Assembly (NCBI RefSeq): GCF_905480005.1
Contig: NZ_CAJQOO010000127.1
Span: forward strand, 1-44,956
From: an uncultured Maricaulis sp.
Lineage (GTDB): Bacteria > Pseudomonadota > Alphaproteobacteria > Caulobacterales > Maricaulaceae
Direction of reading: 5' to 3'
DNA length: 44,956 bases
Both the position numbers and the translations under genes were made by a program. Below, piece by piece: positions 36,894-39,519 of this stretch (position 1 is the stretch's first letter; every line of letters begins with the position of its first letter). Under the pieces are notes generated by a model, which was not told the origin of the DNA, did not search any database, and saw only the letters and a program-made list of their open reading frames with translations.

Positions 36894-37868
36894 CTAGCCT
36901 CGCCCGTGAGGCTCCGCAAAATTGATCAGCGGTCCGGCCGGCACGATCCTGGTCGGATTGATCGTCCCGTGGCTGGCATAATAATGCTTCTGGGCATGCT
37001 CGAAATTGCACGTCCCGGCGATGCCGGGCTGCTGGTAGAGATCGCGCGTATAGGCCCACAGATTGGGGTAATCGACCAGGCGCCTCAGATTGCATTTGAA
37101 ATGCCCGAAATAGACCAGGTCGAAGCGCAGGAGTGTCGGCAGGAGACGCCAGTCCGCCTCGGTTGGCGTGTCGCCGGTCAGATAGCGCGTCCGGCCCAGT
37201 AAATGCTCGAGATGGTCAAGCGTTTCGAAGAGCGGGAAGACCGCTTCTTCATAGGCCGCCTGGCTGGTCGCGAAGCCGGATCTGTAGACGCCGTTATTGA
37301 CCGTCTCGTAGATACGTTCATTGAGGGCATCAATGTCAGCCCGCTTGTCGTCCGGATAGTAATCGCCCGCTTTCGCGCCGACCGCGTCGAAGGCCGAATT
37401 GAACATGCGGATGATCTCGGCGCTCTCATTGGAGACGATACGCCCGGTCTTCCTGTCCCACAGGACGGGGACGGTGACGCGGCCTGAATACTCCGGCTCG
37501 GCTGCCAGATAGACCTGATACATCAGGTCCTTGCCCTGAAGCTGATCGCCGACAATTCCGTCCTCGTCGCGCGCGAAGGTCCAGCCCTGTTCGGCCATGT
37601 TCCAGTGCACGACCGAAACCGGGATCATTGCGTCCAGCCCTTTCAGCGCGCGGTAGATCAGCGTGCGGTGTGCCCAGGGGCAGGCATAGGAGACATAGAG
37701 GTGATAGCGGTCCGGCTCGGCCTTGAATCCAGCGCTGCCGGTCGGGCCGGCGGCTCCGTCCGGCGTCACCCAATTGCGCAACTGGGCCTCCGAGCGTTCG
37801 AAACGCCCGCCGGACGTGTCGGTGTCATACCAGGTGTCATGCCAATGGCCGTCGACGAGCAGACCCAT
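36894..37868 (-). CDS. yqjG: Glutathionyl-hydroquinone reductase (Xi-class GST, YqjG-like)
   Basis: A 324-residue cytoplasmic enzyme that removes glutathione from glutathionyl-hydroquinones. The N-terminal thioredoxin-like domain carries the CPWA site (Cys63) in YVSYACPWAHRTLIYRALKGL, followed by VPVLWDRKTGRIVSNESAEIIRM. The helical C-terminal domain includes NNGVYRSGFATSQ, EADWRLLPTLLRFDLVYFGHFKCN and QQPGIAGTCNFEHAQKHYYASH, all typical of Xi GSTs. It lies 76 bases downstream of pirin on the same strand and probably shares its transcript. Upstream of its stop side lies a 153-base gap with nothing I can name. Confidence 0.93.
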   Translation of the reverse strand: MGLLVDGHWHDTWYDTDTSGGRFERSEAQLRNWVTPDGAAGPTGSAGFKAEPDRYHLYVSYACPWAHRTLIYRALKGLDAMIPVSVVHWNMAEQGWTFARDEDGIVGDQLQGKDLMYQVYLAAEPEYSGRVTVPVLWDRKTGRIVSNESAEIIRMFNSAFDAVGAKAGDYYPDDKRADIDALNERIYETVNNGVYRSGFATSQAAYEEAVFPLFETLDHLEHLLGRTRYLTGDTPTEADWRLLPTLLRFDLVYFGHFKCNLRRLVDYPNLWAYTRDLYQQPGIAGTCNFEHAQKHYYASHGTINPTRIVPAGPLINFAEPHGRG

Positions 37869-37944: not shown

Positions 37945-38796
37945 TCAGAACTTGCCGGCCTGGAAGTCGCGCACCGCCTGGTGCAGTTCCGCTTCGGTAT
38001 TCATGACGAAGGGGCCGTAGCGGGCGACCGGTTCATTGATAGGCTTGCCCGCCACCAGCAGCAGGCTGGCGCCTTCGGGCCCGGCCTTCAGCTCGATCCG
38101 GTCGCCATCTTCCAGCACGCCGAGATCGGGATCATCAACACGGCCTTCGCCGGATGAGACAGACCCCTTGTAGACCGCGATGAAGGCGGTGTGATCGGGA
38201 TCGATATCCTCTTCCAGCCGGGCGCCGGGTTCGAGCACGATGTCGATCAGGGTGGGCTGGATGGCGACGGATTTCGCCGGACCGGTCACGCCGGTCGAGC
38301 TCGATCCGGCGAGCACGCGCAGGCGCGCCCCCGAACGGGTCTCGACGGGCACTTCGCTCTTGTCAAACTCCTGATAGCCGGGGTCGGTCATCTTCAAAGC
38401 GCCCGGCAGATTGACCCAGAGCTGGAAACCCCAGAGCCGGCCATTATCCTGTTCGGGAATCTCCGAATGTACGATGCCGCGACCGGCTGTCATCCACTGG
38501 ATGCCGCCGCCTTCGATGACGCCGGCATGGCCCTTATTGTCGCCGTGGCGCATCTTGCCATCGAGCATGATGGTCACGGTCTCGAACCCGCGATGCGGGT
38601 GGTTCGGGAAGCCGGCCATGTAATCGGCGCTGTCGTCCGAGCGAATCTGGTCCAGCATGAGGAAGGGGTCGAGCTCCATCAGGCCGCGATGCCCCAGCAT
38701 CCGGGTGAGCTTGACGCCGGCCCCGTCCGAGGTCGGAAGGCCGCGCGAGACCTTGGTGATCCGGCGCGTCCTGGTGAGGGTATCGGTCGCGGTCAT
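37945..38796 (-). CDS. Pirin family protein
   Basis: A 283-residue bicupin. The N-terminal cupin has the pirin metal-site pattern PNHPHRGFETVTIMLDG, HADNKGHAG-like HGDNKGHAGVIEGGGIQWMTAGRGIVHSE and WGFQLWVNLP. The C-terminal cupin has DPDHTAFIAVYKGSV and a final GPFVMNTEAELHQAVRDFQAG. Bacterial pirins are often quercetin dioxygenases or redox sensors; activity is not proven here. Adjacent to YqjG, suggesting a shared quinone or phenolic stress role. A multi-half-site operator candidate lies 76-114 bases before the start. Confidence 0.92.
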   Translation of the reverse strand: MTATDTLTRTRRITKVSRGLPTSDGAGVKLTRMLGHRGLMELDPFLMLDQIRSDDSADYMAGFPNHPHRGFETVTIMLDGKMRHGDNKGHAGVIEGGGIQWMTAGRGIVHSEIPEQDNGRLWGFQLWVNLPGALKMTDPGYQEFDKSEVPVETRSGARLRVLAGSSSTGVTGPAKSVAIQPTLIDIVLEPGARLEEDIDPDHTAFIAVYKGSVSSGEGRVDDPDLGVLEDGDRIELKAGPEGASLLLVAGKPINEPVARYGPFVMNTEAELHQAVRDFQAGKF

Positions 38797-38871
38797 GAAG
38801 CTGCGTTCCTGTCCTGTGCCCGCTTGGGTGTTGTTTCACCTGGCAATGTAGGGATTTTCTCTGCGAGTGCC

Positions 38872-38910
38872 ATGGAAACTGGCGAAAGAGATTGTTTCCA
38901 TTGTGGAAGC
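38872..38910 (-). promoter_or_regulatory. Operator candidate with three half-sites, upstream of pirin-yqjG
   Basis: ATGGAAAC (38872-38879) and GTTTCCAT (38894-38901) are perfect reverse complements, and TGGAAGC (38904-38910) forms a second near-palindrome with GTTTCCA around TTG. The spacing suits a LysR-type regulator occupying recognition and activation sites. It lies between divergent pirin and lipoprotein genes. The regulator is not in the window. Confidence 0.55.
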
Positions 38911-38946
38911 GATCAGGCAGGCTGTCGGTAGTTTGAGGAGTGAATC

Positions 38947-39519
38947 ATGCGCTTGGCTGTCCTGTTATCCCTGCCCCTGGCTCTCGCGGCCTGTTCGAAC
39001 GAACGACCGGCTGCCGAGGCGGATCTGTTTGACCGGCTCTCGGCCCTGTGCGGCCAGGCGTTTGAAGGCCGGGTCGTCAGCGATGATCCCCGGGATGCCG
39101 ATTGGGCATCACAGGTTTTGACCATGCATGTGCGGGAATGCTCGGCGTCGGAAATCCGCATTCCCTTGCATGTTGGCGAGGACCGTTCGCGGACCTGGGT
39201 CATCACCCGCGAGGCGGCCGGTCTTCAGCTCAAGCATGATCACCGCCATGAAGACGGCAGCGAAGATGTTCTGACCCAGTATGGCGGCATGACCATCACG
39301 GCGCCCACCGAGACGCGCGCCGAATTCCCGGCTGACCAGTTCTCCCGGATGCTGTTCGATCGCGAAGGTATTGCCGCGTCGATGGCGAATGTCTGGTCCA
39401 TCACGCTGGCCGAAACCCGCTTCACCTATGCGCTGGATCGCCCCGACCGTCACTTCGAGGCCGAGTTTGACCTGACCGTGCCGGTTGATGCGCCGCCGCC
39501 GCCCTGGGGCGCGGAATAA
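38947..39519 (+). CDS. Putative lipoprotein of unknown function
   Basis: A 190-residue secreted protein with lipobox LAAC (residues 13-16) right after a short signal peptide. The mature part begins with LFDRLSALCGQAFEGRVVSDD and continues with LTMHVRECSASEIRIPLHVGED, TWVITREAAGLQLKHDHRHEDG and LTQYGGMTITAP. It has two cysteines that could form a disulfide. I recognise no domain name. ATG 38947 is preceded by GAGGAG eight bases upstream. Divergent from pirin, it may share the operator region. Confidence 0.8.
   Translation: MRLAVLLSLPLALAACSNERPAAEADLFDRLSALCGQAFEGRVVSDDPRDADWASQVLTMHVRECSASEIRIPLHVGEDRSRTWVITREAAGLQLKHDHRHEDGSEDVLTQYGGMTITAPTETRAEFPADQFSRMLFDREGIAASMANVWSITLAETRFTYALDRPDRHFEAEFDLTVPVDAPPPPWGAE

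Follow-up and report, generated by a model that had tools for sequence, protein, structure and literature searches.

A conserved palindrome upstream of the Maricaulis pirin gene as the probable operator of a dispersed LysR-type regulon

A 23-bp imperfect palindrome, ATTGTTTCC-ATTGT-GGAAGCGAT, occupies positions 38891..38913 of the window (no strand assigned), that is, of the whole analysed stretch of 44,956 nucleotides from an uncultured Maricaulis sp. With a probability of roughly 0.8, it is a binding site of LysR88, a CrgA/YafC-like LysR protein of 296 aa encoded at another place in the same genome (G000:C189:365-1252), which would activate pirin-yqjG, azoR and yceI and limit its own expression. 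The regulator is probably LysR88 because the motif is shared by the upstream regions of pirin, azoR and yceI and by the start of the LysR88 gene, and because LysR88 belongs to a clade of LysR proteins encoded divergently from pirin genes. As a regulatory site it is of an ordinary kind, and the dispersed regulon proposed behind it is well supported. The nearest named relatives of the window are Maricaulis species, where pirin is up to 95% identical. A search of open-licence papers turned up none that describes this operator or, for Maricaulis, a LysR-azoR-pirin regulon.

The pirin gene (37945..38796, minus strand, 283 aa, Pfam PF02678 and PF05726 above cut-off) is separated by an intergenic gap of 150 bp, counted from start to start, from a divergent lipoprotein-like ORF of 190 aa (38947..39519, plus strand). 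Downstream of pirin, at a distance of 76 bp on the same strand, follows a gene for a yqjG-like glutathionyl-hydroquinone reductase (36894..37868, minus strand, 324 aa), which has GST domains, is 63% identical to E. coli YqjG and is probably co-transcribed with pirin. It adjoins pirin in eight of the ten named Maricaulis loci; in the other two, L003 and L004 (M. maris and M. parjimensis), yqjG was not found within 10 kb around pirin, yet the operator is kept. The lipoprotein-like ORF, to which a Pfam search assigned no family, adjoins pirin in all ten loci. In the window the site lies 56 bp before its ATG, and the ORF is a possible further target. The initial annotation had proposed a three-half-site operator for the pirin/YqjG pair in a divergent promoter without a local regulator. 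The strings it relied on, ATGGAAAC (38872-38879), GTTTCCAT (38894-38901) and TGGAAGC (38904-38910), are indeed all at these positions and fall between the starts of pirin (38796) and of the lipoprotein-like ORF (38947), and no regulator gene adjoins the site. The palindrome reaches past the 38872-38910 span, to 38891-38913.

The rarity of the repeats gives a mixed picture. The ATGGAAAC-N14-GTTTCCAT inverted repeat is no more than expected by chance; the window contains 32 perfect inverted repeats whose arms are 8 bp long and whose loops span 3-20 bp, and five simulated sequences contain 17, 32, 25, 21 and 18 of them. The tighter arrangement GTTTCCA-N3-TGGAAGC with up to two mismatches occurs at one place in the window (two matches, one per strand) versus 0.24 expected, and 6 of 100 shuffles also reach two matches. 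The pattern KTTTCCA-N3-TGGAARC, within one mismatch, has one other place in the 3.07-Mb genome, as has the reversed control pattern. The whole 39-bp three-part pattern, which was defined post hoc, had no chance match in 100 shuffles. It is conservation that raises the tight palindrome above chance. Chance repeats without function would readily explain the N14 inverted repeat, which is of a kind found by chance in the window, but the tight palindrome and its spacing are conserved across Maricaulis, leaving this explanation with a practically negligible probability.

When 11 upstream regions of Maricaulis are aligned, the block CTTCC-N5-GGAAACAAT-N3-TTTC is conspicuous, although not free of departures, and the TTCC-N5-GGAA core recurs in the aligned pirin upstream regions. 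A wider comparison covered 15 pirin upstream regions (the window, ten named loci and four further genomes, some of them near copies) and located TTTC at a fixed place beside the core in all 15. In the window, this element lies three bases past the palindrome on the pirin side (38884..38887, minus strand; GAAA on the plus strand), an offset that is the same in 15 of 15, and it is perhaps part of a second LysR subsite. A lack of conserved half-sites upstream of orthologous pirin genes had been named beforehand as an outcome that would speak against an operator; the conserved core favours the site. The string at 38872-38879 fared differently, as none of 13 relatives has it at that position and L004 has GTTTCCA, but 10 bp away, and it was dropped as an operator part. 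Since the relatives lack this string at that position and the core of the palindrome is conserved, the operator corresponds to 38891-38913; two of the three proposed half-sites form the conserved palindrome, whereas the third falls away.

The suggestion that the arrangement fits a LysR-type site is borne out. A T-N11-A motif is present inside the imperfect dyad (ATTGTTTCCATTGTGGAAGCGAT, with the T at position 6 and the A at position 18). The palindrome would, on an inferred promoter, lie at about -64 relative to the pirin transcript start, and LysR activators usually have their recognition site around 65 bp upstream of the activated transcript start. This position follows from a -10-like hexamer of the pirin promoter, TACATT in the window (38845..38850, minus strand) and TATCTT in most relatives, whose spacing is kept in 15 of 15: a hexamer of the form TA[TC]NT[TG] begins at a distance of 63 or 64 bases, counted from where the site starts, with 15 matches in the 15 pirin upstream regions. 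Taking this hexamer as the -10 element would put the transcript start near 38838 and the centre of the palindrome at about -64; this start is deduced from sequence, a promoter scan of 38600-39150 having given no full sigma-70 promoter.

The same spacing bears on the possibility that the palindrome is not a LysR operator at all but the site of another regulator family or an ECF sigma -35 element. GGAAAC resembles the -35 elements of ECF sigma factors, and in pirin and azoR the plus half of the site shows the stronger conservation. However, most sequences retain the left arm TTCC, the constant hexamer lies 63-64 bases from the site start and not 16-17 from GGAAAC, and dyads of the same kind occur at LysR gene starts outside the genus. 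The ECF-sigma reading was dropped on spacing, and a non-LysR origin of the site is very unlikely.

The motif recurs elsewhere in the genome and genus. Searching 19 genus genomes for TTCCRNNNTGGAAACAAT with up to two mismatches yielded 208 matches as compared to 46 for the reversed pattern; the corresponding numbers for the own genome are 11 and 3. Neighbourhoods among the matches listed first suggested azoR and yceI as targets, which were then tested with loci picked by a protein search of the 19 genomes, finding azoR in 17 and yceI in 18 of them. A symmetric matrix derived solely from pirin sites, 13 in number, was used to score the upstream regions of azoR, yceI and two LysR genes in the 19 genomes. 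All 17 azoR upstream regions scored 13.1-28.2 at -106 to -136, with reversed controls at 5.5 or below. For yceI, 16 of 18 reached 10.0 or more at -100 to -123, against control scores no higher than 2.8; of the remaining two, one scored 8.4 at -100 and G013 had none. AzoR and YceI were identified by the Pfam families Flavodoxin_2 and YceI; in NCBIfam, AzoR matches azoreductase models best, with all scores below the cut-offs. As a control, 355 genes called in Maricaulis loci, a set rich in regulon loci, had a median best upstream score of -0.9, and scores above 10.6 came exclusively from regulon genes and from neighbouring or overlapping calls with the same intergenic region.

Some further matches were recorded. 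An mraZ-like gene heading a cell-division cluster has sites of the same form about 150-300 bp upstream in two genomes, with 2 and 1 mismatches (L126 and L127, G000:C2:36997-37014 and 37078-37095; L102, G009:C21:21281-21298), and in G006 a Dps-like gene, which converges with a gene for an LsrB-like LysR, is preceded at about 75 bp by a site with two mismatches (L118, G006:C13:95164-95181). Three matches of the own genome that fall within genes or at their ends (L129, L130, L132) were attributed to chance or to conservation of the coding sequence. The strict form TTGTTTCC-N5-GGAAACAA matched in two of 385 genomes of the class, both times inside called ORFs, and did not help to name the regulator. 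The names LsrB, OxyR, MraZ, Dps, DoxX, LigB and MATE for ORFs at the loci are assigned by sequence likeness.

As for the regulator, a search of the own genome gave ten LysR-type HTH matches, one being a fragment copy of another. Among the nine own LysR proteins, LysR88 is the sole member of a clade (support 99/97) that includes 37 LysRs encoded divergently from pirin; the clade comprises 60 rows, namely these 37, 22 Caulobacterales rows and LysR88, and the long-branch warnings of the tree program concern other rows. Orthologs with at least 72% identity are present throughout the genus except in G007, a 65% complete genome. In 17 of 18 upstream regions of LysR88, the best motif match is at exactly -21, over the ribosome site and start codon. 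The scores of this autosite range from 1.3 to 21.2, are low in many species and are to be read against one reversed control that reaches 9.1. Its GGAA arm coincides with the Shine-Dalgarno sequence, its left arm is lost in G003, and upstream of it lies a GATAAAT-like element that is common among the aligned LysR88 upstream regions. When 235 ATG starts were scored at -21, 12 LysR88 orthologs filled 12 of the top 13 places; the other place belongs to a mis-called pirin start in L009, and no further gene scores above -2.6. The LysR88 gene adjoins or diverges from a DoxX-like gene in 4 of 18 Maricaulis loci and from a LigB-like gene in 7 of 18 (L188-L191, L180, L183, L185 and L186 have such neighbours), and these neighbours are missing there in the window's own genome.

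It is conceivable that the sites belong to a LysR regulon as described but are bound by another LysR, that is by the LsrB-like LysR84 (G000:C113), by an unseen protein or by a paralog. LysR84 came under suspicion via the site before the Dps-like gene in G006, which is near the LysR84 ortholog, and a partial TTCC-N5-GGG is present at -28 to -30 upstream of LysR84 in 6 of 19 genomes (best score 9.4), making the LysR84 control not wholly clean. In addition, the genome is 94% complete, and other Maricaulis species have further CrgA-like paralogs. However, upstream regions of LysR84 score -3.6 to 9.4 and without a fixed place, as opposed to the fixed -21 position at LysR88, for which reason LysR84 was rejected as the regulator, and LysR88 alone of the nine own LysRs is in the pirin-divergent clade. 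We therefore consider a different LysR as the binder unlikely and retain LysR88.

The geometry of the sites would be that of an activator at pirin, with the centre at about -64, and of a repressor at the LysR88 gene. We infer that LysR88 occupies the sites around -64 of pirin-yqjG, azoR and yceI and that it would recruit polymerase there once induced, probably by a quinone or a related electrophile. Since the autosite covers the ribosome site and the start codon, binding of LysR88 at -21 should block its own expression, which could work on transcription or on access to the start codon. The proposed regulon would comprise pirin-yqjG, azoR and yceI, in some species the DoxX-like and LigB-like genes, and perhaps the gene for the lipoprotein.

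Outside the genus, the picture is one of a common regulator clade and a related dyad. A total of 80 pirin loci were examined, 70 of which are outside Maricaulis. None of these 70 pirins was seen to have the exact Maricaulis palindrome upstream, the best match being 11 of 14 (L032). Within 1.6 kb of pirin, 39 LysR genes are divergent from it, of which 37 fall into the LysR88 clade and two (L037, L061) group with YhaJ, a grouping for which the tree program warns of long branches. Over 71 loci (the 70 plus L073), azoR is upstream of pirin in 29, located between pirin and the divergent LysR gene in 28 cases and beside pirin in one more, and yceI is found 0.7-0.9 kb past the pirin end in three; yqjG is near pirin in 12 of the 70 non-Maricaulis loci. 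A dyad of the form ATTGTT-N9..11-AACAAT, first noticed by eye in nine of those loci, is matched in at least 10 of 12 positions near 35 of the 37 LysR starts as compared to 0 of 37 for the reversed control, of which 7 of 37 reach 9. It lies no more than 50 bp from the LysR start in 33 of 37, and at -21, as in Maricaulis, in L016, L036, L041, L047 and L056. A -21 site in LysR88 and in five gammaproteobacterial pirin-linked relatives suggests that it may be an old autoregulatory device.

Closer to the genus, 7 of 17 order relatives of LysR88 (L235-L241) have TTCC- or CC-N5-GGAA just before the start, as judged by eye, and the ten others, including L234 with 68% identity, are without such a site by the same inspection. 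At the level of the family, 7 of 17 non-Maricaulis pirin matches come with a site that scores 14 or more, where controls do not exceed 3.0, and ten have none. Two loci from another family of the order, L240 and L241, contain a LysR88 relative with GGAAACAAT just before its start; an FMN-reductase-like and a LigB-like gene lie near it. L273 (G437:C3:365354-366199) is a second pirin, 41% identical, with a divergent LysR-like ORF and a ATTCGTTCC-N5-GGAACGGT-like dyad upstream.

The initial annotation had also likened the locus to the E. coli stress module with the LysR regulator YhaJ and had called for a search for a YhaJ-like gene. No such gene was found among the nine own LysR proteins of the 94% complete assembly, the best by score being 26.6% identical over 248 residues. 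The likeness is sound as far as pirin and YqjG here and the DoxX/LigB-like genes beside the regulator in some Maricaulis are concerned, whereas the box differs and so, most likely, does the regulator. The YhaJ box is given as TCA-N7-TGA (PMC5031710) or as TCAAATTTTTTGAAGA (PMC11739112), and the site here is TTCC-N5-GGAA. Control of the pirin-yqjG pair by a YhaJ-type LysR, as in E. coli, could be argued from the similar gene content and from L037 and L061, where a YhaJ-clade LysR is encoded divergently from yqjG-pirin. It is nevertheless extremely improbable in view of the weak best own match, the placement of YhaJ in another clade than LysR88 and a box that is not the motif found here. L037 and L061 are worth recording in their own right, as they suggest that these genes are served by LysRs of two clades.

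Pirin and YceI occur widely, and their bacterial roles are poorly fixed. The putative operator ties both to AzoR and YqjG and provides a ready reporter. Together with the clustering of the same genes elsewhere beside a LysR of the LysR88 clade, this link makes a role in quinone or electrophile defence a direct prediction. On balance, we favour the view that in Maricaulis and some of its sister genera the place of YhaJ is taken by a CrgA/YafC-like LysR, which serves a dispersed quinone/electrophile regulon, the fixed -21 autosite being an old device. This would represent a gene cluster spread into a regulon, with a non-YhaJ LysR doing similar work.

Among known regulators, CrgA controls the quinone reductase gene mdaB and itself. 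In the searches made, LysR88 has CrgA and YafC of E. coli as its closest named LysR relatives, matching the CrgA structure 3hhg with an E value of 2.6e-35, and scores 193.8 bits with the YafC equivalog model NCBIfam NF040888, below its cut-off of 470; the likeness is one of the proteins. The structure 3hhg is that of CrgA from Neisseria meningitidis, and a CrgA-named protein of P. aeruginosa SJTD-1 is described as binding mirror-like sites and responding to acyl-CoA (PMC6422896). Two further P. aeruginosa LysRs resemble the proposed LysR88 in their control of pirin genes, and the accessible text of the respective reports defines no operator (PMC2796861, PMC5527654). BexR changes pirin genes, in that an operon of FMN reductase and pirin rises when it is overexpressed (PMC2796861). 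PA3225 acts as a repressor, its deletion raising a pirin gene (PMC5527654), unlike the activation proposed for LysR88. When Pseudomonas fluorescens In5 is in contact with Rhizoctonia solani, genes for azoreductase, pirin, LigB, YqjG and DoxX are reported to rise together (PMC5557065), which fits a co-expressed module and names no regulator.

The E. coli YhaJ regulon likewise has a LysR over dispersed promoters with pirin-type targets and is tied to quinol-like compounds (PMC5031710). Its targets named in that report are yqjF, ybiJ, yhaK, ygiD, yhhW and yceP; two of them, yqjF and ygiD, are of the DoxX-like and LigB-like types found near LysR88, whereas azoR, yqjG and yceI are outside these six, and LysR clade and box are others. 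The LysR-azoR-pirin clusters of Burkholderiales and Gammaproteobacteria share with Maricaulis the LysR clade, the targets and an ATTGTT..AACAAT dyad near the LysR start. There, however, the genes are adjacent and many dyads have N10, as compared to dispersed genes and N11 between the arms in Maricaulis. Thus, genes that often form a cluster in other proteobacteria appear to be dispersed in Maricaulis, with a common operator that would hold them together as a regulon.
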